Virus record (IMG/VR): IMGVR_UViG_3300050015_000205
Location: 1 to 34,062 of that record
From: a virus
DNA length: 34,062 nucleotides
Strand: one strand, 5' to 3'
Positions 18,831 through 31,141 of this stretch are shown piece by piece; the stretch's first letter is position 1, and each line of letters opens with the position of its first letter. The translations under genes were made by a program, and so were the position numbers. The notes beneath the pieces are model-generated. The model searched no databases. It worked only from the letters and a program-made list of their open reading frames with translations, and was not told the origin of the DNA.

Positions 18831-19103
18831 TTACGACTCCACAAACTCCTTGTAAATCTTCTTTATTTCGCCATTGCTACCCTCAATCCTCAAAACAAGA
18901 TCGTTGCATCGCTTCGATGTGATTAACTCTAAAGCCTTTAGTATCTCAGCTAAGACTTGCGATTTATCATTGACCTTGACCGAGATGCTGTACCCAGTCT
19001 TGGTAGTCTTTAAAACACCATCAAAGAATGATTCTAAAGTCTGCCTTTCATCTCCGTTGGGCATTTGAACGATTGTGGTTCGTTTGCCGTATGCGATTTC
19101 CAT
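18831..19103 (-). CDS. Unknown small protein between terminase and portal (90 aa)
   Basis: Start ATG overlaps the TerL stop as TAATG. The protein is mixed alpha/beta (AYGKRTTIVQMPNGDERQTL, SISVKVNDKSQVLAEILKAL, DLVLRIEGSNGEIKKIYKEF). No known domain. Because it ends just upstream of the portal promoter it is the last gene of the packaging transcript. It could assist the terminase, which is a guess from position only. Confidence 0.62.
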   Translation of the reverse strand: MEIAYGKRTTIVQMPNGDERQTLESFFDGVLKTTKTGYSISVKVNDKSQVLAEILKALELITSKRCNDLVLRIEGSNGEIKKIYKEFVES

Positions 19104-20590
19104 TAAGACACCATGAAATTCGGGACGCTAGTTGGTACTTTACGCTTATTCTCGTTCGGTCTAACTGCTATCTGAGTTTGGTAGGCTAAAGAGTCCGAGG
19201 AATCGTCGTTGATAGCCTTCGGGAATAAAGCAAGTTCTTCTTCTAAATCCAAGCATTGGTTCGCTCCACCGATTGTTAAGTGATAGATTCCGTTTCTTTC
19301 ATACCTAGGTACTAGAGCCTCAATCCTCAGCTCCTTTTGAACGCCCCCGTGCTTTATAAGTTCAATGTACGGGAACACTCCTCTGACTCTCGACTGTTCT
19401 TCCCAGCTTATCTTTAGACCTTGCGTGAACTGGTTATCCTCAATCCCTACCTTGTGTAGGTTGTACTTCTGCCACCAGTTAAAAATTAAGTCTATTAGCT
19501 GAGTTGAGCTTAACTTCATTCGGTAGCTTAAAATGTTCCAGTTTCCTTCTCGGTCCACGAAGTTGACAGTTATCCCGATGTAGTCACTGCCTCGCTTAAT
19601 GTCATCCGCCCCTCTAGGGTCAATCGTCATTACATTATAGGTTTGCTTGTCTCTGACTTCTTCTAGGGTTCGATACTGAAACCACTCTTGCTTAAACTTT
19701 CTGTTCTCGTTGTCTGTCGGGGTTTGTTGGTACAGTGCCGAGAACTCGTACGATCCCATCTCTGATTTCTTTTTTAGCAGTTTCTCAAGCGAGAACTTAT
19801 CAGGCCACAACGCTTCACCTTCTTTCCTATGGTCTGAATCTCTGTCAGCGATTGCCTTGTATTCAATCACATCCCACTCATCATAGGCTTCACCATTGGC
19901 CTTAGCCTCCCGTGAGTCTCTCAAAACCCTACCGGCTAGGTCGTCATCGTGCCAACGAGTAAGGATAAACACTATCATTGAGTTGCCTTCTTCACGAGTC
20001 GAAAAGGTAGACTGATACCATTTGTATCTTGATTCTCTGACTGTGGGGGAGTCGGCTTCTTCTCTGTTCTTAAATGGGTCATCAATAATACCTATCTTAA
20101 ACCCTCTGCCTGTTAAAGCTCCACCCACCCCGACTGCGGTATACCCTCCGTTGCCTTGAGTCATCCACCTACCACGAGCTTTAGCGTCAGCTCTTAGGCG
20201 GGATTCAAACATCACCTGATAAACAGGCGATTGCATTATATCTCGAGTCTTTTGTCCAAAGTCTGTTGCGAGTTCATCTGAGTAGGAGGCAACCATCACT
20301 TGAGTCTTAGGGTCTTTGCCTAATACCCAGGATGGGAACTTCTGCGTTGCCATATCTGATTTTCCGTGTCTCGGAGGCATGAAGATCATCATTCTTACAT
20401 CTTTACCTGCTTTGAGTCTTTGATACCCTGATTCTAGCTTTCGGGCTATCTCGTTATGAAACCACTCCAGTTGGTAGGAGGAGTCAACGGCGATGCAGTA
20501 TTCGGCAAAAGTTCCGTTAGTCGCTATCTCTTTGAATATCGCTACGTTCTGTTCTTGCTCGGAGTAGTTGCTCGGCTTGTCTTGGGTCAA
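19103..20590 (-). CDS. terL: Terminase large subunit (495 aa)
   Basis: ATPase and nuclease that pumps DNA through the portal. Walker A is MPPRHGKSD at 71-79; Walker B with the acidic residue is IGIIDDPF at 166-173; TRWHDDD at 211-217 fits the coupling motif. The RNase-H-like nuclease shows TIDPRGAD at 322-329 (D324), GIEDNQ at 382-387, and NDDSSDSLAY at 461-470, supplying the acidic triad. Length is typical. The start is TTG 20590, 74 bases inside the end of the TerS gene, with a GGGGGA tract upstream; no ATG is available before the Walker A motif. The following 90-aa gene is coupled by TAATG. Confidence 0.95.
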   Translation of the reverse strand: MTQDKPSNYSEQEQNVAIFKEIATNGTFAEYCIAVDSSYQLEWFHNEIARKLESGYQRLKAGKDVRMMIFMPPRHGKSDMATQKFPSWVLGKDPKTQVMVASYSDELATDFGQKTRDIMQSPVYQVMFESRLRADAKARGRWMTQGNGGYTAVGVGGALTGRGFKIGIIDDPFKNREEADSPTVRESRYKWYQSTFSTREEGNSMIVFILTRWHDDDLAGRVLRDSREAKANGEAYDEWDVIEYKAIADRDSDHRKEGEALWPDKFSLEKLLKKKSEMGSYEFSALYQQTPTDNENRKFKQEWFQYRTLEEVRDKQTYNVMTIDPRGADDIKRGSDYIGITVNFVDREGNWNILSYRMKLSSTQLIDLIFNWWQKYNLHKVGIEDNQFTQGLKISWEEQSRVRGVFPYIELIKHGGVQKELRIEALVPRYERNGIYHLTIGGANQCLDLEEELALFPKAINDDSSDSLAYQTQIAVRPNENKRKVPTSVPNFMVS

Positions 20591-21071
20591 GTGATTCCCC
20601 CAGTCTTAGGTTAGTATCTACTTCTGTTTTATCCTGCCAGTTATAATTGTTTTTAAGGTTGAAGATGATTCCCGTCACATTACCACCGAATAGGAACTGC
20701 TCATTAAAATGCTCACACCGAATCTTACTTTCCTTTATAGTGTCAAAAAATGCTTCTTTCTTCTCGTAGTTAACCAACGTTTGTCTGCTTGTCCCTAGAG
20801 CTAAGGCAAGGCCAGTAATAGTGTAGGGAATTTGCTTAGTCTTTACCTTATGAGTCACCTCTACTAAATAGTTCTGACCGTTCTCGTCTTTCTTTAAAGT
20901 ACCATCAATGCTTCTAGCTTCCACCCACTCGGTCACATCTTCGACATGAGGATCGCAATTATCGAAATAGGCATTTATTGTCTTCTTGAGTTCTTCTTCG
21001 GATTGGAACTTTAACTTCCGGCCAGAAGTCGTGCTACCTTTCCCGAATTGATTTCCTTTTGGTGCTGCCAT
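20517..21071 (-). CDS. terS: Terminase small subunit (184 aa)
   Basis: DNA-recognition partner of TerL, encoded directly upstream and overlapping it by 74 bases. The centre (IPYTITGLALALGTSRQTLV with NYEKKEAFFDTI) is a helix-turn-helix-like DNA-binding segment, followed by ESKIRCEHFNEQ and the family-typical GGNVTGIIFNLKNNYNWQDK motif. The N-terminus is basic (APKGNQFGKGSTTSGRKLKF), as in this group, and the C-terminus is charged. AAGGAA precedes ATG 21071. A plus-strand RNA unit begins exactly at its start codon on the opposite strand. Confidence 0.88.
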   Translation of the reverse strand: MAAPKGNQFGKGSTTSGRKLKFQSEEELKKTINAYFDNCDPHVEDVTEWVEARSIDGTLKKDENGQNYLVEVTHKVKTKQIPYTITGLALALGTSRQTLVNYEKKEAFFDTIKESKIRCEHFNEQFLFGGNVTGIIFNLKNNYNWQDKTEVDTNLRLGESLDPRQAEQLLRARTERSDIQRDSD

Positions 21072-21099
21072 TGTATTTCCTTGCTTAATACTGTATAAT
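21071..21099 (+). promoter_or_regulatory. Rightward promoter of a candidate small RNA
   Basis: TTGTAT (21071-21076), a 17-bp spacer and consensus TATAAT (21094-21099), running opposite to the surrounding packaging genes. Confidence 0.55.
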
Positions 21100-21105
21100 G
21101 TGGTC

Positions 21106-21161
21106 TAACCGATGTATCAGCGGTAATTGATACAAGCACTGGTGGCCGCCGGTGCTTTTTT
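21106..21161 (+). ncRNA. Candidate small RNA (about 56 nt), opposite to the packaging operon
   Basis: Starts about seven bases after TATAAT and ends in a U6 terminator. It folds as two hairpins: TGTATCA/TGATACA (21113-21119 with 21128-21134) and the terminator. It is complementary to the leader of the TerS mRNA region between the 111-aa gene and TerS, so it could act as a cis-antisense RNA. No reading frame fits inside it. Confidence 0.52.
21134..21161 (+). terminator. Rho-independent terminator (plus strand)
   Basis: AAGCACTGG (21134-21142) pairs with CCGGTGCTT (21049+100: 21149-21157) with one G-U pair and a 6-nt loop, and T21156-21161 gives the U-run. Read on the minus strand no U-run follows, so it acts rightward. 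Confidence 0.75.
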
Positions 21162-21495
21162 ACTGGACTCTTTTATCTACTTCTTTTTCGGGGATGTTTC
21201 CTTCCGCGTATTCTTTTAGGGTCTGTCTTTTCGCTTTTCCGAATATTGTTTTTTTGCCGGTTACTACCAACTCATCCTCTCGGTAAGTCACTACCCTTTT
21301 AGCCATCACCTTATCATCAGTTATCTTGGTGATTTTTAATTCAATGCGGTCATTATCCTTGTTGAAAATGAGAATCTGGCCTACTTTTAGCTTTTTTATG
21401 CCCTTTTTGGTGAAAATATCCGTGATATTCTCTATTTTAGATAGTTTTCGTCTGGTATCTTCTAGTGATGGGGTGATAAATTCTGGTTTTTTCAT
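21160..21495 (-). CDS. Unknown protein of the leftward leader operon (111 aa)
   Basis: Basic, mixed alpha/beta protein: a helical N-terminus (PSLEDTRRKLSKIENITDIF), then a beta segment LKVGQILIFNKDNDRIELKI that looks like a small beta-barrel, and a Lys-rich C-terminus. Start overlaps the stop of the 55-aa gene as ATGA. No domain recognised. Third gene after the leftward control promoter, ahead of the terminase genes. Confidence 0.58.
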   Translation of the reverse strand: MKKPEFITPSLEDTRRKLSKIENITDIFTKKGIKKLKVGQILIFNKDNDRIELKITKITDDKVMAKRVVTYREDELVVTGKKTIFGKAKRQTLKEYAEGNIPEKEVDKRVQ

Positions 21496-21659
21496 TCAAA
21501 GTTCCGACCTAGTAAACAGTTAATCGCTGCAAGGCAAGTTATCTTCTTCGCCTGCCGATCCGTTAGCTTATTAAAATCTACCGAGCTTATAACTTCATCT
21601 AATCCTTTTTGGACTAGAGAGACTTCGGTGAGGATGCGGTTGTATTCTTTCGAAAGCAT
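21492..21659 (-). CDS. Small helical protein (55 aa), unknown
   Basis: Short gene tightly packed between neighbours: its ATG overlaps the previous TAA as TAATG and its TGA overlaps the next ATG as ATGA. It begins MLSKEYNRILTEVSLVQKGL and ends CLAAINCLLGRNFE, predicting two or three helices with two cysteines. The coupling on both sides is the main evidence that it is real. Confidence 0.6.
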   Translation of the reverse strand: MLSKEYNRILTEVSLVQKGLDEVISSVDFNKLTDRQAKKITCLAAINCLLGRNFE

Positions 21660-21847
21660 TAGATCTCCCTGCCTTGAGAATATTTGATTATCGAAAATCT
21701 TTTACTCATCGGATCGTCAATCACTAACCAACCAAGTCCTTCGATTTCACGTTCCAAAATATACGCACCGGCTTTAAGGAAAACGACTGGCTTCTTGTAG
21801 TGATTGTCGTTTAGTCGAGCGATTCTGTCGTGGTAGAGCTTGATCAT
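21659..21847 (-). CDS. First gene of the leftward operon (62 aa), unknown
   Basis: Preceded by a strong AAGGAGGAG and by the leftward promoter at 21869-21897. The protein is beta-like (KPVVFLKAGAYILEREIEGL, GWLVIDDPMSKRFSIIKY). No family recognised. Being promoter-proximal beside a palindromic operator it could be regulatory, but no DNA-binding motif is visible. Confidence 0.62.
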   Translation of the reverse strand: MIKLYHDRIARLNDNHYKKPVVFLKAGAYILEREIEGLGWLVIDDPMSKRFSIIKYSQGREI

Positions 21848-21868
21848 CGTCTCCTCCTTGTTGTAAAC

Positions 21869-21897
21869 ATTATCTCACTTTTAGGCTCTAAAATCAA
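21869..21897 (-). promoter_or_regulatory. Main leftward promoter
   Basis: Minus strand: TTGATT (21897-21892), 17-bp spacer, GATAAT (21874-21869) with TG one base upstream. It drives the 62-aa gene and the packaging genes. Confidence 0.62.
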
Positions 21898-21905
21898 TAA
21901 GAAAG

Positions 21906-21923
21906 TTTGCAAGGTCTTGCAAA
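21906..21923. promoter_or_regulatory. Palindromic operator between divergent promoters
   Basis: TTTGCAAGGTCTTGCAAA has 8-bp arms that are perfect inverted repeats with a GT centre. It lies 8 bp from the leftward -35 and 4 bp from the rightward -35, so one dimeric regulator could control both. A third half-site, TTTGCA, overlaps the rightward -35 (21927-21932). Confidence 0.68.
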
Positions 21924-21927
21924 GTAT

Positions 21928-21956
21928 TTGCATTGTGGAAAACTATATGCTATAAT
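21928..21956 (+). promoter_or_regulatory. Main rightward (early) promoter
   Basis: TTGCAT (21928-21933), 17-bp spacer, perfect TATAAT (21951-21956) with TG one base upstream. The start site would be near 21963, giving a 113-nt leader before the initiator gene. Confidence 0.75.
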
Positions 21957-21962
21957 TTCCTT

Positions 21963-22075
21963 GTGAGTCAGAGAAGTGCCATTTTTTTATAGGCTAATTA
22001 GCGAACAACCCCCCGTAGCAATCAATGGCAACATTGGCTCACACTGCGGGGGTTTGTATATATCAGGGAGAAATA
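21963..22075 (+). promoter_or_regulatory. Attenuator-like leader of the replication initiator mRNA
   Basis: The leader contains the 10-bp palindrome GCTAATTAGC (21993-22002) and a hairpin of CCCCCGTAG (22010-22018) with CTGCGGGGG (22044-22052), followed by TTTGTATAT. Nested inside is CAATG-GCAA-CATTG (22023-22036), a GNRA-type tetraloop hairpin. A stable stem plus U-rich tail before the ribosome site suggests transcription attenuation or an RNA switch. GTAGCAA at 22015-22021 resembles half an origin iteron. Confidence 0.55.
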
Positions 22076-22777
22076 GTGGCTAATCCTCAAAAAGAGAATG
22101 GACACCTAGACCTAGCAAATGAAATTGTCGATCAACTTTGCCATTACAGAATTAGTGGCGAAGAATACCAGGTGCTTTGGGTTATATTAAGGAAAACATA
22201 CGGCTGGAATAAAAAAGAAGATCGCATTTCAATTAGTCAGTTCTACAGTATGACCGGAATGAAGAAACCCTCTATTGTAAGAGCATTAAAGAAGCTTCAC
22301 AACAAAAATATCGTTAGCAAAAAAGCTACTGGGTTGGGCAATGTTTGGTCTTTAAACAAGGATTATCACACTTGGACAATCGTTAGCAAAAAAGCTACCC
22401 CAGTAGCAAAAGAGCTAACAGGTAGTAGCAAAAAAGCTAATACAGCGTTAGCAAAAAAGCTACATACAAAAGACACTATTACAAAAGACACTATACAAAA
22501 GACAGTAGCACCTACCAAACAATTCTTTGAGTCGGTTATTAAAAGAGATTCCAAGTATGAGGGAATAATACAATTCCTTATAAGTAGGAAAGTTCCCGAA
22601 AAGTTAGCTCGTCTCGAAATAGATAAGTTTACCTCATACTGGACTGAGCCGAATCAGTCCGGTACGAAAGAACATTGGCAATTAGAAAAAACGTTTGAGG
22701 TTAGAAGAAGGTTATTAAACTGGCTGAGCCGAGTAAAGTTTCAGCCAAAAGAAAGGGTTGGTAAAAGCTATGACTAA
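22076..22777 (+). CDS. Replication initiator, phage lambda O-like (233 aa)
   Basis: The N-terminal 95 residues match the replication protein O N-terminal domain: ANPQKENGHLDLANEIVDQL, then EEYQVLWVILRKTYGWNKKE and a winged-helix recognition part (DRISISQFYSMTGMKKPSIV, RALKKL). The middle encodes the iterons (VSKKATG, VSKKATP, SSKKAN, LAKKLH) and the C-terminal half is a separate helical domain, probably for helicase or loader contact. Start chosen as GTG 22076 with AGGGAG six bases upstream, since conserved sequence begins there; an ATG at 22025 in the same frame lies inside the leader hairpin. Binds the origin in its own gene and recruits the host replisome. The next gene starts within its last codons. 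Confidence 0.86.
   Translation: MANPQKENGHLDLANEIVDQLCHYRISGEEYQVLWVILRKTYGWNKKEDRISISQFYSMTGMKKPSIVRALKKLHNKNIVSKKATGLGNVWSLNKDYHTWTIVSKKATPVAKELTGSSKKANTALAKKLHTKDTITKDTIQKTVAPTKQFFESVIKRDSKYEGIIQFLISRKVPEKLARLEIDKFTSYWTEPNQSGTKEHWQLEKTFEVRRRLLNWLSRVKFQPKERVGKSYD
22313..22463. repeat. Iterons: probable origin of replication inside the initiator gene
   Basis: Five copies of a partly palindromic motif, consensus GTTAGCAAAAAAGCTAC: 22313-22329, 22382-22398, 22403-22419, 22425-22440 and 22447-22463. Copies two to five start 21, 22 and 22 bp apart, two helical turns each, so initiators would bind on one face. Location between the two domain-coding halves matches lambda ori in gene O. Confidence 0.78.
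22466..22508. repeat. Three AT-rich tandem repeats next to the iterons
   Basis: ACAAAAGACACTAT at 22466-22479 and 22481-22494, and ACAAAAGACAGTAG at 22495-22508. They directly follow the last iteron, where the AT-rich unwinding element of an origin is expected. They encode the TKDTI repeats of the initiator. Confidence 0.6.
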
Positions 22778-23147
22778 CGAACTAGCAAAAGAGCAAATGT
22801 GTATTCTGATGAGAAACGGAATTGAAATCTGGATCGATAAAGAAAAGGCGTTAAGGTTCGGTGAAGATTGGGTTGGTGGATTAAAAGCGGCAGTCTTAAT
22901 TGATGGCCGATACTTAAACTCGGTTGATATTACTGGAGTCTTTACGCCACAGGATTTAGAAGATTTGAAACGGGCCAAGCAAGGACAATGGAAATGCGAC
23001 AAGGGCCACTGGCACGGTAAGGGTGAAGATTGCCGGTGCGGATGGGAGTCTACCAGAAACAATGATACGGTTTACCCAGAAAGAGAATACCACGGCTCAA
23101 TCTTTGGTGACAAGGTTAAAGAAATGGCTAAAAAGAAGAAGATGTAA
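22770..23147 (+). CDS. Early protein with zinc-binding-like cluster (125 aa), unknown
   Basis: ATG 22770 overlaps the end of the initiator gene (stop 22775-22777); a TTG at 22758 in frame has no spacing to a ribosome site. The N-terminal 55 residues are mixed alpha/beta (QMCILMRNGIEIWIDKEKAL). The middle carries CDKGHWHGKGEDCRCGW, a Cys/His cluster that could bind one zinc, and the C-terminus is Lys-rich (KEMAKKKKM), suggesting nucleic acid contact. Coupled with the following zinc-ribbon gene by TAATG. Function not recognised. Confidence 0.62.
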   Translation: MTNELAKEQMCILMRNGIEIWIDKEKALRFGEDWVGGLKAAVLIDGRYLNSVDITGVFTPQDLEDLKRAKQGQWKCDKGHWHGKGEDCRCGWESTRNNDTVYPEREYHGSIFGDKVKEMAKKKKM

Positions 23148-23371
23148 TGAATTGTAGAGAATGTGGCAGTGAAGACTTAAAGTATTCTAAACATATGGGT
23201 TATGGTCCGGTTATGGGGAATGTTTACGAGTATCGGGTTAATTGCGGAAAGTGCCACGCCAGTTATACTGTCAAAAGGACTCAAGAAGTCTACGAAAAGG
23301 TAAAAGATCAAGACTGGGTCAAATCTAAAAACGCTAGGAAACAAGACTTTCCTATTGACAAGCTTCTCTAA
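23147..23371 (+). CDS. Zinc-ribbon protein (74 aa)
   Basis: CRECG near residues 3-7 and CGKCH near 33-37 form a C-x2-C / C-x2-C zinc ribbon with intervening beta strands (GNVYEYRVNCGKCHASYTVK). The C-terminal third is basic and helical (YEKVKDQDWVKSKNARKQDF). The start overlaps the previous stop as TAATGA. Zinc ribbons of this size in early operons often bind nucleic acid or act as adaptors; the partner is unknown. A terminator and two promoters follow. Confidence 0.68.
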   Translation: MNCRECGSEDLKYSKHMGYGPVMGNVYEYRVNCGKCHASYTVKRTQEVYEKVKDQDWVKSKNARKQDFPIDKLL

Positions 23372-23389
23372 ATAGTTTTACAATCAAAT

Positions 23390-23411
23390 TGCGACTATCC
23401 CCCTGGTCGCA
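23390..23411. repeat. Intergenic hairpin
   Basis: TGCGAC (23390-23395) pairs with GTCGCA (23406-23411) around a C-rich 10-nt loop. No U-run follows. It lies after the zinc-ribbon gene and may protect the mRNA 3' end. Confidence 0.45.
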
Positions 23412-23440
23412 GATAGAAACTACAAATTAGTATTCCGCTT

Positions 23441-23462
23441 AAGAGAGGCTTCGGCCTCTTTT
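23441..23462 (+). terminator. UUCG-tetraloop terminator after the first early operon
   Basis: AGAGGC (23444-23449), TTCG loop, GCCTCT (23454-23459), with flanking AAG/TTT pairs extending the stem into a short U-run. Confidence 0.7.
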
Positions 23463-23489
23463 GCGTTTCCAGCAGTTATTTGGTATAAT
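23461..23489 (+). promoter_or_regulatory. Promoter of the anti-SD small RNA
   Basis: TTGCGT (23461-23466), 17-bp spacer, perfect TATAAT (23484-23489) with TG one base upstream. It starts right behind the preceding terminator. Confidence 0.72.
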
Positions 23490-23495
23490 CGGTTA

Positions 23496-23547
23496 AAAGA
23501 TCGGCAAACAAACTTCACCTCCAGTTTAGTTCTAAGCCGGTCTTTTT
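23496..23547 (+). ncRNA. Candidate small RNA with anti-Shine-Dalgarno loop (about 52 nt)
   Basis: Predicted to begin near 23496 and end in U5. The stem is GATCGGC (23499-23505) with GCCGGTC (23536-23542), one G-U pair, extended by A/U pairs. The 30-nt loop carries ACCTCCAGTTT (23517-23527), the perfect complement of AAACTGGAGGT (23632-23642), which spans the ribosome site of the next gene. It also has six-base complementarity to GGAGGT at 24064-24069 and TGGAGG at 24202-24207. It could act in trans, or in cis if RNA reads through. Confidence 0.6.
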
Positions 23548-23587
23548 GGTTGTGCATAAGTCGTTATTTGTGCCTGAAACAAAAGTA

Positions 23588-23616
23588 TTGCATCGGTTGT
23601 GGCGGTATGATACAAT
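23588..23616 (+). promoter_or_regulatory. Promoter of the second early operon
   Basis: TTGCAT (23588-23593), 17-bp spacer, TACAAT (23611-23616) with TG one base upstream. RNA would start near 23623, so an in-frame ATG at 23617 is excluded and ATG 23647 is used. Confidence 0.68.
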
Positions 23617-23646
23617 ATGTCTAGCATTAAGAAACTGGAGGTCGAA

Positions 23647-23853
23647 ATGTTAGCAAAAAATGTCCCCACAAGACTACAACCGAAAGAGACTGACGGATAT
23701 AAAGCCGTGATAGCTCTCCTTTGTCTTGTCGTCTTGGCGATGATGGCTCTAGCAGTTTGGTTGTCGGTAGGTCGATTGAATGAATACAATAAAAATGTTT
23801 GTGCTACTTATGGCAAACAAGAGGACTGCAAAACTCCACTGGATCTAAAATGA
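23647..23853 (+). CDS. Small single-pass membrane protein (68 aa)
   Basis: GGAGG lies six bases before ATG 23647. Residues about 19-41 (YKAVIALLCLVVLAMMALAV) form one transmembrane helix, with a short basic N-terminal side and a C-terminal segment containing two cysteines (NVCATYGKQEDC) that could form a disulfide outside the cell. Its ribosome site is the perfect target of the adjacent small RNA, so it is probably tightly controlled. The stop overlaps the next ATG. Early phage membrane peptides can act on host physiology or superinfection; nothing specific can be claimed. Confidence 0.66.
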   Translation: MLAKNVPTRLQPKETDGYKAVIALLCLVVLAMMALAVWLSVGRLNEYNKNVCATYGKQEDCKTPLDLK

Positions 23854-24077
23854 CTGAGATAGATGATGCCGGTAAAGAACTCTACACCGACCAAGAAATT
23901 GAAGCTTACGAGGAATATGTCGAGGACTTCAACGAAATGATGAACGACCACGATTGCCACAATTCCGAAGATGACGGTTGTGTCTGTACCACAATGAAAC
24001 TAAAAACCATAGACGAATGGTACGACGATAAATTAGCCGAAGTATTAGACGAAGTAGCGGATCGGAGGTCTGAATGA
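23850..24077 (+). CDS. Acidic early protein with Cys/His cluster (75 aa), unknown
   Basis: ATG 23850 overlaps the preceding TGA (ATGA). Strongly acidic (EIEAYEEYVEDFNEMMNDHD) with HDCHNSEDDGCVC in the centre, a possible metal site. The end overlaps the next start by ATGA. Very acidic small early proteins can be DNA mimics, but the Cys/His cluster argues for a structural metal instead. Confidence 0.6.
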   Translation: MTEIDDAGKELYTDQEIEAYEEYVEDFNEMMNDHDCHNSEDDGCVCTTMKLKTIDEWYDDKLAEVLDEVADRRSE

Positions 24078-24238
24078 AAAAGTCAGAAGCAGAGAAAGAA
24101 TATTACAGAGCATTGGTGGCGTGGGAAGCCGCAGTTGATCGAATGGTTTTCCACATAGAAGAACAGTTGATGGAACTAAGAGCAAAAAAAGATGGTATTT
24201 TTGGAGGACTAGATGACAGAACAAAAAATGACAATTAG
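24074..24238 (+). CDS. Small helical protein (54 aa), unknown
   Basis: GGAGGT lies five bases before ATG 24074, which overlaps the preceding stop. It begins MKKSEAEKEYYRALVAWEAA and is predicted helical through residue 40. It ends at TAG 24236-24238, 26 bases inside the next gene. The ribosome site has a six-base match to the anti-SD loop RNA. Confidence 0.6.
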   Translation: MKKSEAEKEYYRALVAWEAAVDRMVFHIEEQLMELRAKKDGIFGGLDDRTKNDN

Positions 24239-24617
24239 CCGAAGCTACTCACGCAAGGTAAACCTTGGAAATTACACTTCAGAGGACTATTTCTGCTCCC
24301 GCAACATCGAGCTACCAGCTGACATCTCGATAGCCGAAGCCCAAGAGTTCTCCGAACAATTATTCGCCTTGGCGATGACCGATGTCGAGCGAGACATGCG
24401 TAAGGTTGCCTCTATGAGAGACGAGGAAGGCCATATAAGCTCCGAAAGACTGAAACAGCTACTTGAGGATACCTTGAAGGGTAAATCAATGATGCTGGAC
24501 GAATATGAGCTTTTAACAGTAGGGCAGAAGATGGCGATCAACGAGAAGAAAAAAGAGTATAAAAGATCAGATGAATACAAAGCAACACTAAAACCTAATA
24601 CGAGGGCAAAAGAATGA
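24213..24617 (+). CDS. Early phage protein (134 aa), conserved-type, unknown
   Basis: TGGAGG precedes ATG 24213. The N-terminal phrase ISRSYSRKVNLGNYTSEDYF has the look of a phage early-protein family whose members begin with a similar beta hairpin. The rest is helical and charged, with a Lys-rich C-terminus. No enzymatic motif. It overlaps both neighbours (26 and 4 bases), so it belongs to one coupled operon with the SSB-like gene further down; a role in DNA metabolism is plausible by context only. Confidence 0.62.
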   Translation: MTEQKMTISRSYSRKVNLGNYTSEDYFCSRNIELPADISIAEAQEFSEQLFALAMTDVERDMRKVASMRDEEGHISSERLKQLLEDTLKGKSMMLDEYELLTVGQKMAINEKKKEYKRSDEYKATLKPNTRAKE

Positions 24618-24757
24618 ACGAGATTGAAGGATACAAATCGGAAATGATGGGTTATGTCAAACGAGAAAACAGAGCGATAGCAGAGATAACTCTTAACATA
24701 ATTATCACAATGGCTGAAAGAGACCAGATCAGAAAGAGCCTAGAGGAGATAAAGTAA
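24614..24757 (+). CDS. Small helical protein upstream of SSB (47 aa), unknown
   Basis: ATG 24614 overlaps the previous TGA (ATGA) and its TAA overlaps the next ATG (TAATG). It begins MNEIEGYKSEMMGYVKRENR and ends MAERDQIRKSLEEIK. Predicted to be one long helix. The double translational coupling supports that it is expressed. Confidence 0.58.
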   Translation: MNEIEGYKSEMMGYVKRENRAIAEITLNIIITMAERDQIRKSLEEIK

Positions 24758-25143
24758 TGGATTACACATCACTAGGAAAACTTGTCGGTTCTACCTTTAG
24801 TGTCCAAAAGGTAGGTGGTATAAAGTTTCAGAAGTGGGATGATGTTTCAGAGAAGTATATGACCTCGGACAAACCCCAGCAAGGCTATTCTAAAAAGTAT
24901 GAGATCGAGACTGATAAAGGGAAATTAGATTTAGGCATTGGACAGGTAGGGTCGCTTTTGGAAGCTGTCTTTAAAGATGGAGTCGCTGACTTAAATGGTA
25001 AGACATTCCTTGTAAAGTCTAATGGTAAAACTGGTAAAGACATCAGATATTATTACGATGTTACCGAGACTGGGCCACTAGCAGATGTAGAATTAAATGG
25101 AGGTGGGGATTATGATGGTGAGTTCGACCAAATCCCTTTTTGA
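24757..25143 (+). CDS. Single-stranded DNA-binding-like protein (128 aa)
   Basis: Residues 1-105 are beta-rich with aromatic residues spread along strands (GGIKFQKWDDVSEKYMTSDK, KYEIETDKGKLDLGIGQVGS, KDIRYYYDVTETG), consistent with an OB-type fold. The C-terminus is acidic and ends DYDGEFDQIPF, the hallmark SSB tip that binds replication and repair partners. GAGGAG precedes ATG 24757. It would coat ssDNA made during phage replication and recruit host proteins, in keeping with the absence of phage replisome genes. The tip is directly visible; the OB fold is inferred. Confidence 0.72.
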   Translation: MDYTSLGKLVGSTFSVQKVGGIKFQKWDDVSEKYMTSDKPQQGYSKKYEIETDKGKLDLGIGQVGSLLEAVFKDGVADLNGKTFLVKSNGKTGKDIRYYYDVTETGPLADVELNGGGDYDGEFDQIPF

Positions 25144-25151
25144 GGAGCATT

Positions 25152-25526
25152 ATGAGAGATTCTAAAGTCCTAATAGTCCCCGCAGTTATAAAGTCGCCTA
25201 AAGTCAAAGTAGACAACACGATTAGCTTTGTGGTGGATGTCCAAGAGCTAGGGGCAGAAGAAATGACCGTTTTGTTTCAACTCTCGCAAAAGGCGGGTTG
25301 GTTTCTATTCTCGGAGAGCGTTGAGGCGTTGGCGGATGTGAAAGTCCCCGATGAGCCAGTAAAAGACAAAGAGGCTAAGTCACTAAGTGAACAGTTAAGA
25401 AACATCAAGTACGTTCGGTTTGAGAAAGAGGGCGGTAAACCAGCGAAGTTTAATGCGTGGTATGATTTGTGGCGATCCACCGAGATTGAAAAAGAGCGTG
25501 AGCGTCTTAGAGAGTTGGAGGACTAG
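25152..25526 (+). CDS. Unknown early protein beside SSB (124 aa)
   Basis: Start ATG 25152 follows GAGGAG, eight bases after the SSB-like stop. Beta-rich first half (DSKVLIVPAVIKSPKVKVDN, TISFVVDVQELGAEEMTVLF), then a charged helical C-terminus. The last part contains AKFNAWYDLWRSTEIEKERE. No recognised domain. Its stop TAG abuts the next ATG (TAGATG). Possibly a recombination or replication accessory by position. Confidence 0.6.
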   Translation: MRDSKVLIVPAVIKSPKVKVDNTISFVVDVQELGAEEMTVLFQLSQKAGWFLFSESVEALADVKVPDEPVKDKEAKSLSEQLRNIKYVRFEKEGGKPAKFNAWYDLWRSTEIEKERERLRELED

Positions 25527-25670
25527 ATGGAAATAATACCGCCACCAATCCAGGTGACCTATGCGATGTCCAATAACTGCAATACCGTAACCTACAAAAT
25601 CATCCGTAAGCCTAAAGGTATCTGGGAAGTCTTGAAGCCCTACAAGAAACGGTGGCAGTGGTGGAAGTAA
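25527..25670 (+). CDS. Small Trp-rich basic protein (47 aa), unknown
   Basis: TAGATG junction with the previous gene and TGGAGG six bases upstream of the ATG. It begins MEIIPPPIQVTYAMSNNCNT and ends KPYKKRWQWWK, an unusual Trp/Lys/Arg-rich tail that could bind nucleic acid or membrane. It overlaps the following gene by 19 bases. Confidence 0.55.
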   Translation: MEIIPPPIQVTYAMSNNCNTVTYKIIRKPKGIWEVLKPYKKRWQWWK

Positions 25671-25945
25671 TCTGCTGTTGCGGTTTCGCCGGTACAAAAG
25701 CCGAAGTCAAAAAACATCAATTAAAATGCCCACAAGCGAGATATTACGAAAGGATGAGTATGGGAGTAGACCTACGAATAAAAACTGGTAATCAGAACTA
25801 TTACAAAGAGTTAGGCAAACGTGGTTCCGACAAGTCAGACCGTAAAAAAGGTATGGCCACTAAAAAACGATGGTATGGCGAAAGTTATGCCTCAGTAATA
25901 GGCAAGAGAGGAGCGAAGAAGAAAAATGAGATTAGCAAGGGTTGA
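25652..25945 (+). CDS. Zinc-finger-like basic protein with KGG-type repeats (97 aa)
   Basis: GTG start at 25652 (GTG 25658 and 25661 are alternatives; none has a clear ribosome site). N-terminal ICCCGFAGTKAEVKKHQLKC looks like a C2-H-C zinc finger. The rest is strongly basic with Lys-Arg-Gly phrases (YYKELGKRGSDKSDRKKGMA, KKRWYGESYASVIGKRGAKK), reminiscent of small phage KGG-type proteins. Probably nucleic-acid binding. It overlaps both neighbours. Confidence 0.58.
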   Translation: MAVVEVICCCGFAGTKAEVKKHQLKCPQARYYERMSMGVDLRIKTGNQNYYKELGKRGSDKSDRKKGMATKKRWYGESYASVIGKRGAKKKNEISKG

Positions 25946-26279
25946 GATTAAAGCTCCACGCTGGGAGGGGAACGCCAAGGAAAGAGTAGTTGGTATAGCG
26001 GAATACCGGATGACGGAACCTAACCTCCAAATAGATTTGACATATACCCGAAAAGACGGAACCCGAACCTACCCAGATCCGTTCTTCATCAAAACTGCGA
26101 AGGCGTTAAAATATCCTACTCAGGTCGTAGGTGGGAACGTAGTGTTAAGACTGATCCCGATGAAAGACCTAGCTACGAGTATCGGCGGGATCGACGAAGA
26201 AGCGAACTTGGAGATGTTGGATGAGGCTTTTAAGGTCGAGCCGGAGAAGAAGATTAAACAAGAAAGGTTGGCGTTATGA
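25926..26279 (+). CDS. Unknown early protein (117 aa)
   Basis: Mixed beta protein: ARVEIKAPRWEGNAKERVVG, IAEYRMTEPNLQIDLTYTRK, and DPFFIKTAKALKYPTQVVGG suggest a compact domain that may bind nucleic acid or a small ligand. The C-terminus is charged and helical. GAGGAG lies 12 bases before ATG 25926, inside the previous gene. The stop overlaps the next small gene. No family recognised. Confidence 0.58.
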   Translation: MRLARVEIKAPRWEGNAKERVVGIAEYRMTEPNLQIDLTYTRKDGTRTYPDPFFIKTAKALKYPTQVVGGNVVLRLIPMKDLATSIGGIDEEANLEMLDEAFKVEPEKKIKQERLAL

Positions 26280-26371
26280 GTAAAGCATCTTATAGAATAG
26301 AAGCAGAGAAAAAAGGTAAGGCTAAATCAACCGAGTCGGGCTTAGAAATTAAAAAAGGAGGACTACGATGA
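26276..26371 (+). CDS. 31-aa reading frame, probable severed N-terminus of the 154-aa gene
   Basis: ATG 26276 overlaps the preceding stop (ATGA) and its TGA overlaps the next ATG. The sequence starts MSKASYRIEAEKKGKAKS and continues TESGL, which is also the N-terminus of the gene at 27201. The shared 18 bases are in the same frame in both genes, so this looks like the left half of a gene split by the Cys-repeat gene. It may still be translated as a short coupled peptide. Confidence 0.5.
   Translation: MSKASYRIEAEKKGKAKSTESGLEIKKGGLR
26329..26346 (+). repeat. 18-bp direct repeat, left copy, flanking the Cys-repeat gene
   Basis: AACCGAGTCGGGCTTAGA at 26329-26346 recurs exactly at 27206-27223. 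The copies are 877 bp apart and bracket the Cys-repeat gene. Confidence 0.9.
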
Positions 26372-27204
26372 GTGACAACAATAAAAACTTAACAAACTGC
26401 AATTCCTGCAGTTACTGCGATTCCTGCGATTCCTGCGATTCCTGCAATTCCTGCTATTACTGCGATTACTGCAATTCCTGCAATTCCTGCAATTCCTGCC
26501 ATTCCTGCGATTCCTGCTATTCCTGCGATTACTGCGATTCCTGCGATTCCTGCAATTCCTGCTATTACTGCGATTACTGCAATTCCTGCTATTCCTGCGA
26601 TTACTGCGATTCCTGCGATTCCTGCAATTCCTGCTATTACTGCGATTACTGCAATTCCTGCAATTCCTGCAATTCCTGCCATTCCTGCGATTCCTGCTAT
26701 TCCTGCGATTACTGCAATTCCTGCAATTCCTGCAATTCCTGCAATTACTGCTATTCCTGCAAAGGTCTCCGTATGAGTGAGAATATGCTATTTTGTCTTG
26801 GTGATGGGAAATACGAGCCTAAAGGTGAGGGCTACCAAAAGAACAATCGCATATTCAATGTTGATTGCACAAAATATGAAGTTCAGAAAGCCAAAAGTTC
26901 TTTGCCTTCGTTTAACCTCGGTATCACAAAATGGGTAGAAAAAGACGATATGACCGCTAAGGAGAAAAAAGATGTTAGCGGTTGGGAAACTATGGGCGGA
27001 TATCTAAAAATATATTCTTACGAAGAAGCGTGGGCAAATGTCTGGGCAGACCTTTCAAAGAGTGATAAGCAGAAGTTCCTTGGCCTACCGCATTTCAACA
27101 AAGACATCTTCAAATTCATAACTGGTATAGATGTGGAAGTCGCAACTAACCCAACTGAGATTGTGATTGATGGGGCAACTTATGTGCTGAAAGGAGTGAA
27201 ATGA
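26368..27204 (+). CDS. Cysteine tripeptide-array protein (278 aa)
   Basis: After MSDNNKNLTNC come forty consecutive tripeptides (residues 12-131) of the form (N/D/Y/H)(S/Y)C; only the second, SYC, departs. Every third residue is Cys, 40 in a row. Residues 132-278 are a normal globular domain (LRMSENMLFCLGDGKYEPKG, GWETMGGYLKIYSYEEAWAN, HFNKDIFKFITGIDV). Strong AAAGGAGG precedes ATG 26368. Regular Cys spacing suggests a metal-loaded or disulfide-bonded rod or beta-solenoid, possibly host-interacting; its function is not recognised. The gene is bracketed by 18-bp direct repeats and appears inserted into another gene. Confidence 0.82.
   Translation: MSDNNKNLTNCNSCSYCDSCDSCDSCNSCYYCDYCNSCNSCNSCHSCDSCYSCDYCDSCDSCNSCYYCDYCNSCYSCDYCDSCDSCNSCYYCDYCNSCNSCNSCHSCDSCYSCDYCNSCNSCNSCNYCYSCKGLRMSENMLFCLGDGKYEPKGEGYQKNNRIFNVDCTKYEVQKAKSSLPSFNLGITKWVEKDDMTAKEKKDVSGWETMGGYLKIYSYEEAWANVWADLSKSDKQKFLGLPHFNKDIFKFITGIDVEVATNPTEIVIDGATYVLKGVK
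26401..26760 (+). repeat. 40-unit tandem 9-bp array in the Cys-repeat gene
   Basis: Units follow NAT-TMC-TGC: the first codon uses all four bases at its first position, the second is TCC or TAC, the third is always TGC. Higher-order blocks are visible: 26428-26535 and 26608-26715 encode the same twelve-triplet series, and 26536-26607 is an eight-triplet version lacking four internal triplets. Confidence 0.92.
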
Positions 27205-27665
27205 AAACCGAGTCGGGCTTAGATAAAGAGATAAGTATAGCAACAAGAAATATGACAGAAGCAGTAGTTTCTGGAAAGTGGTTCGTATTATCTGAAAAGA
27301 AAGTTTTGATGCCAGATGGTAGTTGGAGTTGCGACATAAGAGAAAGAGATTTACAGAACCTTTGCGTAGAAGCAGTCACAGAAATCCTAGCCCAAGCAGT
27401 TCAGGAAGCTCTAGCGAGGCAAGATAAGGAGTATCCCAGAATAACGGATGTAGCCGCCTACACTAACAGAATTATTAAGGATACCAAGTTAATAGAACGA
27501 GCACGATGGGAAGAGGAGTTGGTGGAGAAGATAGATAAGATACCGACCTTCTACCCAACAACTGGAACCGTGCTAACTGACAGTTTCAAGAAAAAATATC
27601 TCAAGAAACTGATACCCATAGATGATGTCTTAGAGATACTAACCAATGACATAAAGGAGAAATAA
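27201..27665 (+). CDS. Unknown early protein (154 aa), possible C-terminal part of a split gene
   Basis: AAAGGAG precedes ATG 27201, which overlaps the Cys-repeat gene's stop. It begins MKTESGLDKEISIATRNMTE; residues 3-8 are encoded by the right copy of the 18-bp repeat. The remainder is helical and charged (LQNLCVEAVTEILAQAVQEA, LIERARWEEELVEKIDKIPT) without a recognised domain. Joining the 31-aa frame at the repeat would give one continuous protein of about 170 residues. Coupled to the nuclease gene by TAATG. Confidence 0.62.
   Translation: MKTESGLDKEISIATRNMTEAVVSGKWFVLSEKKVLMPDGSWSCDIRERDLQNLCVEAVTEILAQAVQEALARQDKEYPRITDVAAYTNRIIKDTKLIERARWEEELVEKIDKIPTFYPTTGTVLTDSFKKKYLKKLIPIDDVLEILTNDIKEK
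27206..27223 (+). repeat. 18-bp direct repeat, right copy
   Basis: Exact copy of 26329-26346, at codons 2-8 of the 154-aa gene, in the same reading frame as the left copy. Confidence 0.9.
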
Positions 27666-28075
27666 TGGGCTGGAATAGTATAAAGCCCCGTCCGGCAGAC
27701 ACCGCTTGGAGCAAGTATGTAAGAACCGAAGCTCGTAAGTGCGAGATCGGCGTTAGATGTACCCCCCAAGAACGCCACAAGGAGGATGGTTCACTTGATA
27801 TTTCATATATGGATTGCGTTCATATAAAAGGACGCAGGAAAGAATCTACCCGTTTTGATAGGAAAAATACTCTGGCAGGATGCAAATCTTGTCATAAAAT
27901 GTTCCACGATGAAGGCAATAAGTTTGTTGAAGAATGGTATATAGGGAAGTTCGGGCAAAAAGCGTGGGACTTACTAACCATTCAAGCTAACACCCCCATA
28001 ATAGGTAAAGACGATGCCTCTGTTATTCTATTCTGCAAATCAGCGATGAAAAATAACCGGCCAGAAAAGTCTTAA
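27665..28075 (+). CDS. HNH / NinG-like nuclease (136 aa)
   Basis: Cys and His residues are arranged as in NinG-type recombination nucleases: MDCVHIKGRRKESTRFDRKN, then LAGCKSCHKMFHDEGNKFVE. C-V-H followed by TRFD-x-x-N, C-x2-C-H and F-H-D give a zinc-supported beta-beta-alpha HNH-like core. WYIGKFGQKAWDLLTIQAN completes the family-like C-terminal part. AAGGAG precedes ATG 27665. Last gene of the rightward arm. It may process recombination or packaging DNA intermediates; the exact substrate is inferred only. Confidence 0.7.
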   Translation: MGWNSIKPRPADTAWSKYVRTEARKCEIGVRCTPQERHKEDGSLDISYMDCVHIKGRRKESTRFDRKNTLAGCKSCHKMFHDEGNKFVEEWYIGKFGQKAWDLLTIQANTPIIGKDDASVILFCKSAMKNNRPEKS

Positions 28076-28087
28076 CGAGCAAAACCA

Positions 28088-28120
28088 TATTAGGTAGATG
28101 ATTATAGTTCTCACCTAATA
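28088..28120. terminator. Hairpin between converging arms
   Basis: TATTAGGT (28088-28095) pairs with ACCTAATA (28113-28120). It sits between the end of the nuclease gene and the last codon of the opposing lytic gene, as expected for a bidirectional end, but lacks a clear U-run. Confidence 0.42.
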
Positions 28121-28663
28121 CCAACCACAGTTATAAGAGTGTTCGACGGCGTTCGCCCAACTTCCGTACCGTGCCATAACGTAACCCTGCATCCAGCGTA
28201 ATTGAGTTACAGGATTAGTGACCCAGTCATCACCGGCTGAGGCCATTTTGCTTCCAGGCAACGATTGCGGGATGCCATAAGCCCCGCTAGGGTTCGAGGC
28301 GTTCCAGCGACAACCCGACTCTCTGTTTATGAGAATTATCGCATTAGAAGGATCAGAGATACCCGCTTGGGACATCCACGTTGCACAGTCCCCTGAAGGC
28401 ACTACAACGGCCCCTGGTGGCGTTTTTATGTTGTAGGTGGGAGTTTGTACTATAACGGGGTCCGGTGGTGCTGTGGGGCTTCCTAGAGGGAATTTTAATT
28501 GTTCTTTTTTCTCTACAATTATAAGAGAATTGATTGATTTTAGAACTTTAGGATTTGGGTCTTTGTCGGAACTTGCGAGTCTCGGCCAGAATAACAGGAG
28601 GATTAGCAGTAAAAGGATGAAAATCAGCCACTTGATGTACTTAATCTTATCTTTCTTTTTAAG
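28115..28663 (-). CDS. Rpf/SLT-type peptidoglycan lytic enzyme with membrane anchor; irregular 5' end
   Basis: The C-terminal 95 residues match the small transglycosylase domain of APF/Rpf-like proteins: INRESGCRWNASNPSGAYGI with the likely catalytic Glu, SLPGSKMASAGDDWVTNPVT, QLRWMQGYVMARYGSW, ending NCGWY. The same frame continues upstream without a stop to 28663 and encodes a Lys-rich start, a hydrophobic anchor (WLIFILLLILLLFWP) and a Pro-rich linker. No ATG, GTG or TTG starts this longer frame; the only standard start is GTG 28402, which would drop the anchor. ATG 28702 is in frame but separated by TAG 28664-28666. Possible readings: ATT start (28645), amber readthrough, or a damaged gene. 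Confidence 0.68.
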   Translation of the reverse strand, partial: LKKKDKIKYIKWLIFILLLLILLLFWPRLASSDKDPNPKVLKSINSLIIVEKKEQLKFPLGSPTAPPDPVIVQTPTYNIKTPPGAVVVPSGDCATWMSQAGISDPSNAIILINRESGCRWNASNPSGAYGIPQSLPGSKMASAGDDWVTNPVTQLRWMQGYVMARYGSWANAVEHSYNCGWY

Positions 28664-28708
28664 CTATGCGGAGATCGTTAGTTTTGCTTCTAGCGGTCTC
28701 ATTTCGGC

Positions 28709-29125
28709 CTAAAAGGATACCTTCCTGATTTCACTATGGTGCTTCTTACAAAGCCACCTGACATCTAATGGTTTTAAGTAATCATCGTGATGGGCTTCTA
28801 CATTGAGGTTACCACATACTTCGCACGGCATCTTTGTCAGTTTACCACTACCTAGCCCAAGTCGCACTGTGTTGTAAGCGTGTATCCTACCAGGGTTTTT
28901 AATGCGATCTTTTTTCTGCCACTGTTTGTAATAAGTACGCCACTTTGGATTGTTACATCTACCCTTAATCGCCTCCCTTCCCTTCTCTGATTTACTATAC
29001 TTAGCACTACTCTTTCTCACACACTCCTTGCAAGAGCTGAAGTGTTTATCTGCTGTCTCTGGGTGTAGGTAGAAACCTGACAATGGTTTCTTATTAAGGC
29101 ATTTTGTGCATATCTTACTTTCCAT
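28709..29125 (-). CDS. HNH-type endonuclease with zinc fingers (138 aa)
   Basis: N-terminal C-x2-C pairs (ICTKCLNKKPLSGFYLHPET, SSCKECVRKSS) form a zinc finger. The C-terminal core MPCEVCGNLNVEAHHDDYLK followed by PLDVRWLCKKHH has the paired Cys, the HH-D catalytic centre and the final C-x2-H-H of phage HNH nucleases. ATG 29125 lacks an obvious ribosome site. It ends seven bases before an ATG in frame with the damaged-looking lytic gene. Likely a free-standing homing or group-I-like endonuclease. Confidence 0.78.
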   Translation of the reverse strand: MESKICTKCLNKKPLSGFYLHPETADKHFSSCKECVRKSSAKYSKSEKGREAIKGRCNNPKWRTYYKQWQKKDRIKNPGRIHAYNTVRLGLGSGKLTKMPCEVCGNLNVEAHHDDYLKPLDVRWLCKKHHSEIRKVSF

Positions 29126-29173
29126 AAAATCATTTTAGGCGGGTCTAGCATACGAGTCAATAAGAAAATAGTT

Positions 29174-29202
29174 GGGAGCGGCTGGGATCACCAACCGCCC
29201 CC
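29174..29202 (-). terminator. Hairpin terminator after the Cys-rich genes
   Basis: 12-bp stem of 29174-29185 with 29191-29202, two wobble pairs, 5-nt loop. On the minus strand it is followed by a moderately U-rich tract (ACTATTTTCTTATT). Confidence 0.55.
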
Positions 29203-29225
29203 TATCTCAAGCCGAGGTCTTCGAC

Positions 29226-29498
29226 TCAAGGTTCTGAAGGTCGCCGTGCCTTGATCGCCTCGGCTGACTCGGCAGCAGCCTTGTTAACGGCGATGGCGGC
29301 CTTTCCCGCCAGGAGAGCCATCCACATTCGAAACTTCGGACAGGTTCCCCCACACGTACGATCCTTGTTGCAGTGATGACACGGATGCTCTTCCATCGTC
29401 TCCCCCTCGTAGCCGAATAGTGCCTTGCAGTAGCCGGGACAGTTCTTGTACCGCTCGTTGCGGAGTTTCCAGCACATCTGACACATCGGGTGGTTCAT
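29226..29498 (-). CDS. Cys-rich small protein (90 aa), unknown
   Basis: ATG 29498 overlaps the previous TGA (TGATG), so it is coupled. It begins NHPMCQMCWKLRNERYKNCP and has further C-x2-C and C-x4-C sites (CHHCNKDRTCGGTCPKF), nine cysteines in the first 55 residues, then an Ala-rich helix. Likely zinc-binding. Base composition here is visibly more GC-rich than in the structural genes, suggesting recent acquisition with the neighbouring nucleases. Confidence 0.62.
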   Translation of the reverse strand: MNHPMCQMCWKLRNERYKNCPGYCKALFGYEGETMEEHPCHHCNKDRTCGGTCPKFRMWMALLAGKAAIAVNKAAAESAEAIKARRPSEP

Positions 29499-29779
29499 CA
29501 GAACAACCTTCTCCCGTACTCGACCTCCGACTTGTGATAGCAGCAGATGCTCGCAAAGAGGCAGATGCTGTAGTGGCACTCACGGTTATGAGCGTTCTTG
29601 CGACAGTTGCGGTCAAAGTGAGTGTTGTACCTGCGGTGCAACTCCCCTGAAATCCAGAGGATGATGTTCTCACCCTCAGAGTAGAGCTTCCGAGGATGAA
29701 AAAAGTGGTGTTTGCTACTCCGCTTTTGCGACATCTGTGGCTTGGGTTGACGATACCGCTTCTTATTCCCTTTTCGCAA
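29498..29779 (-). CDS. Small HNH-like / Cys-His protein (93 aa)
   Basis: TTG start 29779 with GGGGAG eight bases upstream. It begins with a basic stretch, then KHHFFHPRKLYSEGENIILW and SGELHRRYNTHF, reminiscent of the His-rich core of small phage HNH-like proteins, followed by a cysteine group (CRKNAHNRECHYSICLFASI). Coupled to the next gene by TGATG. Whether it is an active nuclease cannot be told. Confidence 0.55.
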   Translation of the reverse strand: MRKGNKKRYRQPKPQMSQKRSSKHHFFHPRKLYSEGENIILWISGELHRRYNTHFDRNCRKNAHNRECHYSICLFASICCYHKSEVEYGRRLF

Positions 29780-29806
29780 AGGAACGCACTCCCCTCAATG
29801 ACGAGA

Positions 29807-30271
29807 TTACACATCGTTGAGTCTTGCAAACTCCCCGAAAAGCTCTTTTGCCTTACTGTTATAGACTTTAGCGGCATCTACCTCAGAGGAGAACCTGCCA
29901 AGGGAGAGTTTCTTGTCTCTGCACCGAATGTCTGCTTTCCACTTCCCCTTAGACTTATCCCAGCTTACACCCTTGTAAACCGAGGTGAGTCCTATGCGAG
30001 GAGACATATTGGCGGCGTTCTCACTACTGTCGCAGATCCTTAGGTTCTCACGACGGTTGTCTAGACTATCTCCGTTGATATGGTCTACCATCTTTCCTTC
30101 GGGAGGGTTCATTAAGAACCTGTGCATCGAGACAGACCGTTGCTTACCATTGACCCGACGGGAACAATGGGCATATCTTCCAAACTGCCACTTTCCGAAC
30201 GATGAGACCGCCTCGTAGTCGCAGTCAGAAACCTTAGTTACTTTCCCTTGCGTTAGTACGATTTCCTTCAT
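29807..30271 (-). CDS. HNH homing endonuclease with AP2 DNA-binding domain (154 aa)
   Basis: ATG 30271 has AAAGGAG four bases upstream. VDHINGDSLDNRRENLRI (about residues 62-79) is the HNH core with D63-H64, N72 and N76. MHRFLMNPPEG precedes it. The C-terminal 55 residues (TSVYKGVSWDKSKGKWKADI, LGRFSSEVDAAKVYNSKAKE) are an AP2 domain, the usual DNA-recognition partner of this family. These genes spread by cutting intron-less or insert-less alleles. It lies in a block with two more HNH-like genes. Confidence 0.88.
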   Translation of the reverse strand: MKEIVLTQGKVTKVSDCDYEAVSSFGKWQFGRYAHCSRRVNGKQRSVSMHRFLMNPPEGKMVDHINGDSLDNRRENLRICDSSENAANMSPRIGLTSVYKGVSWDKSKGKWKADIRCRDKKLSLGRFSSEVDAAKVYNSKAKELFGEFARLNDV

Positions 30272-30321
30272 ACACTCCTTTCGAGTAGTATTACTCATTT
30301 ATTAGAAATATCTTTGTAACT

Positions 30322-30327
30322 ATTATA
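30322..30327 (-). promoter_or_regulatory. -10 element upstream of the HNH-AP2 gene
   Basis: Consensus TATAAT on the minus strand about 50 bases before the start codon. No convincing -35 is present at 16-18 bp, so this is a weak call. Confidence 0.35.
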
Positions 30328-30351
30328 CCCTTTGACGAGTGTAACCGCCAC

Positions 30352-30681
30352 CTAGATGTCGTATAGGCCAGGGACGATGTAGCTCGGACTTTGAAAGTCC
30401 AGTTCAAGGTCAAGTGCTTCCATCGCCTCGTCGATAGCCTCGAAAGAATCGAGTATACCGCCGTGAACTCCGCCCTCAATCTCGCAGTTAGGGTCTTCGT
30501 CACAGTTGCTCACCTTAATAGTGACTGTAACCCCAACGAGAATAACGGAGTAAGCCCTCATTACTGGGATATAGGTCGATGGATGTTCCTCGATGTACTT
30601 CTTTAGGTGCAAGAGGACCTTCGTTATGTGGGCGAGATAATCAGACTCAACGGACAGGTCGGGGACTTTTTGAATCGCCAT
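30352..30681 (-). CDS. Unknown protein downstream of holin (109 aa)
   Basis: ATG 30681 is chosen because AAGGAGG lies five bases upstream; the frame extends to a GTG at 30726 without a ribosome site. The protein starts MAIQKVPDLSVESDYLAHIT, has a hydrophobic beta or short membrane-like stretch (YSVILVGVTVTIKVSNC) and an acidic C-terminal half (IEGGVHGGILDSFEAIDEAM). No domain recognised. Confidence 0.6.
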   Translation of the reverse strand: MAIQKVPDLSVESDYLAHITKVLLHLKKYIEEHPSTYIPVMRAYSVILVGVTVTIKVSNCDEDPNCEIEGGVHGGILDSFEAIDEAMEALDLELDFQSPSYIVPGLYDI

Positions 30682-30720
30682 CTCGGCCTCCTTAAAGGAA
30701 CGTGGTTTTACCCAAATCTC

Positions 30721-30765
30721 TGACACATAAAATAGTTGAATGTTACAACTGACACCTATGTGTCA
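30721..30765 (-). promoter_or_regulatory. Nested palindromic element
   Basis: TGACACATA (30721-30729) and TATGTGTCA (30757-30765) form a 9-bp inverted repeat enclosing AGTTG/CAACT. TGACAC-CTAT-GTGTCA (30750-30765) is a second palindrome sharing the right arm. A TTGACA box overlaps it on the minus strand. It may be an operator or a structured leader between holin and the 109-aa gene. Confidence 0.5.
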
Positions 30766-30773
30766 AAGTCTGC

Positions 30774-31058: not shown

Positions 31059-31069
31059 ATAACTCCTTT

Positions 31070-31141
31070 CTAAAGTTTTTTAAGCAATACTACTACAAGG
31101 ATAAGGATTACTAGACCGACAAAGATTGTTTCGATACTCAT
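31070..31141 (-). CDS. 23-aa membrane peptide of the lysis cassette
   Basis: AAGGAG lies seven bases before ATG 31141. The peptide is almost entirely one transmembrane helix (IFVGLVILILVVVLL) with a KKL end and one acidic residue near the start. It sits between endolysin and holin genes with good spacing. It could be an antiholin, pinholin-like or holin partner; the function is inferred from position. Confidence 0.6.
   Translation of the reverse strand: MSIETIFVGLVILILVVVLLKKL

Follow-up and report, generated by a model that had tools for sequence, protein, structure and literature searches.

The window, by which we mean the whole 34,062-base stretch of DNA analysed here, is the virus record of a tailed phage, with leftward late genes that include a large terminase gene (19103-20590; PHROG terminase match) and rightward early genes that start with a replication-initiator-like gene at 22025 (PHROG comparison). 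A DNA similarity search of the window against phage records gave no match. A GH25 lysin is encoded, with its nearest phage matches mostly from Gram-positive hosts, which hints at a Gram-positive-type wall of the host and does not settle the host itself. Three repeats of GTTAGCAAAAAAGCTAC lie within the replication-initiator gene (22313-22335, 22382-22404 and 22447-22469), where they are possibly origin repeats, and a partial copy is present at 23649-23671 in the start of a membrane-protein gene. Further into the window, at 26368-27204, a 278-aa protein is encoded in which 9-nt repeats make up the first half and yield Cys-rich units (NSC, YC, DSC).

Two predicted small RNAs and a membrane-protein gene

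Direct reading found all of the sequence elements named in a preliminary description of this DNA where that description had placed them. On the + strand, the promoter of a predicted hairpin RNA, here called RNA2, occupies 23461-23489, with TTGCGT at 23461-23466, a 17-nt spacer, and TATAAT at 23484-23489 extended by a preceding TGG. It had been called a consensus promoter, and this holds for the -10 element, which is perfect and extended, but not for the -35, where TTGCGT matches TTGACA at only 3/6 positions; the site was absent from the list of a stricter generic promoter scan. Five bases past TATAAT, at the expected transcription start, begins the 5' arm of a stem in which AAAAGATCGGC (23495-23505) pairs with GCCGGTCTTTT (23536-23546) around a 30-nt loop, with a T5 tail at 23543-23547. 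Folding bore out the U-tailed terminator hairpin reported earlier (-16.4 kcal/mol; shuffles averaged -6.0, z -5.0, and none was as stable) and, with a scan for promoters closely followed by terminators, predicts a ~53-nt + strand RNA (23495-23547) that would end in an intrinsic terminator. For a terminator its loop is unusually long, and its tail holds only five T.

The 30-nt loop was correct in span but had been taken as open, and in the fold it is partly closed by an inner helix (23507-23514 with 23523-23531) that leaves an 8-nt apical loop, UCACCUCC (23515-23522, + strand; unpaired probability 0.72-1.0). The letters of this apical loop are those of the anti-Shine-Dalgarno part of the 16S rRNA tail. 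Reading of the RNA2 loop on the minus strand gives KLEVKF.

Directly upstream lies another such unit (23355-23462, + strand), overlooked in the preliminary description. Its promoter (23355-23384; TTGACA-18-TACAAT, 11/12) is the best promoter-like site of 20500-34062, and the fold and promoter-terminator scan predict an RNA of ~73 nt, RNA1 (23390-23462), with an 8-bp hairpin (23390-23397/23404-23411) bearing the hexaloop UCCCCC (23398-23403) and a UUCG terminator at 23441-23462 (fold -27.5 kcal/mol, z -4.1). Scanning both strands of 1.01 Mb of phage DNA for a promoter with a close terminator hairpin returned three units, two of which were the adjacent RNA1 and RNA2; the thresholds were set after the window had been seen, so that this count is supportive and carries no p-value.

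Downstream of RNA2, the promoter described earlier as lying between the RNA and its target was found at 23588-23616 (+ strand), with TTGCAT at 23588-23593, 17 nt and an extended TGA-TACAAT ending in the -10 box at 23611-23616; it is not in the strict promoter list. The mRNA would be expected to start near 23622 and to carry, at 23632-23642, the segment AAACTGGAGGT, which includes the Shine-Dalgarno sequence GGAGG (23637-23641), ahead of an ATG at 23647 that opens a + strand gene (23647-23853) for a 68-aa protein with one predicted transmembrane helix. No stable fold was predicted for this leader (z 0.18). Comparison of the protein gave no PHROG family and two Pfam hits, both below threshold, the downstream genes tested were likewise without family, and no relatives of it were found in the viral contigs or phage records searched. 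With its strong Shine-Dalgarno sequence, and with small membrane proteins heading the early genes of two related phages, the gene looks real.

Predicted pairing of the RNA2 loop with the neighbouring ribosome site

As first described, the RNA2 segment ACCTCCAGTTT (23517-23527) is an exact complement of the Shine-Dalgarno region at 23632-23642 over 11 nt, the two segments lying on the same strand with 104 nt between them. Within the window, AAACTGGAGG is present only at these two places (0.11 expected). Shuffled RNA2 loops reached an 11-nt complement in 0.03% of cases (3e-4), and in 0.25% (2.5e-3) when ACCTCC was held in place. Of 836 ribosome sites of other contigs, 2 had an 11-nt complement somewhere within the 375 nt before them, a yardstick from which, scaled to a 30-nt loop, we infer a frequency of about 1e-4. 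AAACTGGAGGT can also be read as the common codons K-L-E-V, and because of this two copies in opposite orientation are less surprising than they would otherwise be.

Loop pairing was evaluated with correction for accessibility, including the cost of opening both RNAs, across 40 gene starts that were tested in the window. The RNA2 loop and the neighbouring ribosome site gave -12.8 kcal/mol (duplex -17.4, opening of RNA2 +2.3, opening of the mRNA +2.4), which ranked first of the 40, with the terminase start next at -7.7, 5 kcal/mol worse. The duplex would cover -15 to -5, counted from the start codon, a stretch that the 30S subunit has to occupy, and at -17.4 kcal/mol is stronger than that of the 16S tail with the same mRNA (-13.0). 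Opening of RNA2 costs only 2.3 kcal/mol because the inner helix is weak; the 5' side of that helix (AAACU) matches the target letter for letter, so that the target could replace it strand for strand. Cofolding of whole RNAs had placed other gene starts ahead of the neighbour. This ranking was set aside in favour of the accessibility-corrected pairing, since cofolding has to disrupt the outer stem and does not allow contacts by the loop.

Outside the window, 4/231 strong ribosome sites of other phage contigs bound RNA2 as well as the neighbour did, three of the four through GGAGGTG, and computation predicts binding of the loop to strong GGAGGTGA sites elsewhere. In these models the RNA2 loop thus fits its neighbour well and is also a generic Shine-Dalgarno binder, the latter because UCACCUCC equals the 16S tail, and an effect on host genes is conceivable. 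The further targets proposed at 24064 and 24202 share just the common 6-nt Shine-Dalgarno core and do not count as evidence, and the idea of broad targeting within the phage is weak given the 5 kcal/mol drop to the next site.

For RNA1, the best partner among the 40 gene starts was the GGGGGA site of the terminase before TTG 20590 (-6.5 kcal/mol, accessibility-corrected), and computed pairing with RNA2 or with the membrane-protein mRNA was negligible. On this modelling RNA1 is without a convincing target in the window. A speculative and rather improbable idea is that RNA1 and RNA2 make up a tandem regulatory cassette of anti-Shine-Dalgarno copies, each with a C-rich loop (UCCCCC in RNA1, UCACCUCC in RNA2) fitted to a particular ribosome site. 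RNA2 would be aimed at the early membrane protein and RNA1 perhaps at the terminase start, and loop sequence would set the timing of phage genes.

Relatives and known antisense systems

No relative of RNA2 was found in the viral contigs searched; four exact matches there to the 18-mer AAACTTCACCTCCAGTTT were unrelated and apparently lie in coding sequence. Two contigs, L053 and L040, are distant relatives that share downstream genes with the window, and in both a small one-helix membrane protein with an ML(S/T)K start heads the early genes, with weak similarity to the window protein (15-27% identity). An RNA2-like unit was not seen in the readable upstream DNA of L053, the sole syntenic relative with such DNA, nor beside the small membrane gene of the downstream-gene relatives L039 and L040. 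Relatives found through the terminase were set aside as short contigs or contigs with different neighbours, and searching of genome contigs by terminase or by the protein at 24757 gave no relatives. In L040, repeated CCTTGC ... GCAAGG or GCGAGG elements, some of them inverted repeats, lie between successive small early genes (120-1080). A ribosome site nearly identical to the target, AAACTGGAGGCGAAATG, was found in another contig (L013, 5745-5763) inside the end of the upstream coding sequence, and precedes a small Cys-rich gene adjoining a replication gene; no complementary RNA for it was seen in that locus.

RNA2 was compared with known antisense RNAs. The c4 RNA lies upstream of its target, shares its strand, and is complementary to it over two short, separate segments. 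In the c4 antisense RNA of P1 and P7 (RF01695), the pairing segments are thought to lie in loops and to target the ribosome-binding region, blocking translation (PMC12197685). RNA2 likewise is complementary to the ribosome-binding region of a same-strand downstream gene, but its best pairing is one continuous 11-nt segment, it has a promoter and terminator of its own, and its predicted target, a small membrane protein, may differ in kind from the antirepressor on which c4 acts. Rfam gave no match at the gathering score, and none at E up to 10 in 23340-23900; the c4 model RF01695 was not matched. The sar RNA is encoded on the strand opposite to its target and is fully complementary to it, unlike RNA2, which lies on the strand of its target with complementarity of 11 nt only. 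Sar of P22, a small phage RNA, acts by pairing with the mRNA of its target and hindering the initiation of translation (PMC12197685).

The type I pairs tisB/istR-1, timP/timR and shoB/ohsC each join a small membrane protein to an adjacent RNA with limited complementarity to the 5' region of the mRNA (PMC7667032, PMC8309996), and these pairs are divergently transcribed (PMC7667032). RNA2 resembles these in its neighbour, a small hydrophobic protein of 68 aa with one helix, and in its predicted antisense pairing with a small-protein mRNA, and differs in that RNA2 and the target gene are both on the + strand. In UCCC-motif RNAs of low-GC Gram-positives (LhrC, RNAIII, RsaE), a C-rich motif contacts the Shine-Dalgarno sequence and helix opening then extends the pairing (PMC4132741). 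By analogy RNA2 may start contact in the same way, although its apical loop UCACCUCC has CCUCC and no UCCC; the UCCCCC loop of RNA1 does have UCCC. Taken by analogy, RNA2 most likely works like c4, sar or a type I antitoxin while being, on the tests run, a member of none, and it is not counted as a member because it differs from each known system in at least one tested feature.

Possible modes of action

The reading that we lean towards, with moderate confidence, is that RNA2 is a stand-alone antisense RNA, adjacent to the membrane-protein gene and on its strand, that prevents translation of the protein. RNA2 would be transcribed from a promoter of its own and terminated by its hairpin, and its UCACCUCC loop would first touch the Shine-Dalgarno sequence of the neighbouring 68-aa membrane-protein mRNA. 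The weak inner helix would then open, allowing 11 base pairs over AAACUGGAGGU that would keep the 30S subunit off. As the mRNA would start at the intervening promoter, without the RNA2 segment, the position of that promoter between RNA2 and the gene points to action in trans; the same segment might act in cis on transcripts reading through the RNA2 terminator. The likely purpose would be to keep synthesis of the membrane protein low until there is more of its mRNA than of RNA2. The analysis establishes the letters of the DNA, the computed fold, and the complementarity with its rank; promoter use, the existence of RNA2, repression and its purpose or benefit are what we infer. Of the two forms of compact riboregulator suggested in the preliminary description, trans inhibition is the better supported, its pairing being strong, accessible, centred on the Shine-Dalgarno sequence and ranked first, while the cis switch, confined to readthrough transcripts, gained no independent support.

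The hairpin could instead be only a terminator for upstream transcripts, with a complement that arose by chance, helped by the Shine-Dalgarno core and the K-L-E-V codons. We consider this unlikely, while granting it a real chance: an 11-nt complement within 375 nt upstream occurs for some 0.2% of ribosome sites, so that one per 34-kb window is not very rare, and the chance 18-mer matches elsewhere lie in sequence apparently coding KLEVKF. Against it stand the extended -10 promoter 5 bases ahead of the stem, the full terminator already present at 23441-23462, and the position of the match, in the loop and on the Shine-Dalgarno sequence of the nearest gene (3e-4).

A more general role, in which RNA2, and RNA1 with its UCCCCC, would mimic the 16S tail and dampen many host or phage genes with strong Shine-Dalgarno sequences, appears improbable. 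The identity of the UCACCUCC letters with the 16S anti-Shine-Dalgarno, the 4/231 outside ribosome sites bound equally well and the preference of RNA1 for the GGGGGA site of the terminase (-6.5) are consistent with it; the 5 kcal/mol lead of the neighbour within the window, and the extra AGUUU that gives specificity beyond the Shine-Dalgarno sequence, argue the other way. More doubtful still is a cis leader that would act only on readthrough from upstream promoters by masking the Shine-Dalgarno sequence, leaving the membrane protein to be made only from its own promoter. The segments do lie 104 nt apart on one strand and the short T tract suggests leaky termination, but RNA2's own promoter would then be needless, and the pairing does not appear in the fold of the joined transcript, computed with a program that cannot form a loop-to-Shine-Dalgarno pseudoknot.

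If RNA2 is real, the phage would have a very small and autonomous antisense regulator, a single hairpin next to its target on the same strand that would act at once as terminator, as carrier and as anti-ribosome-site. The logic of c4 would thereby reach an uncultured phage that lies outside the known families, and RNA2 would provide a minimal natural example of a riboregulator that starts at a loop and proceeds by helix opening.
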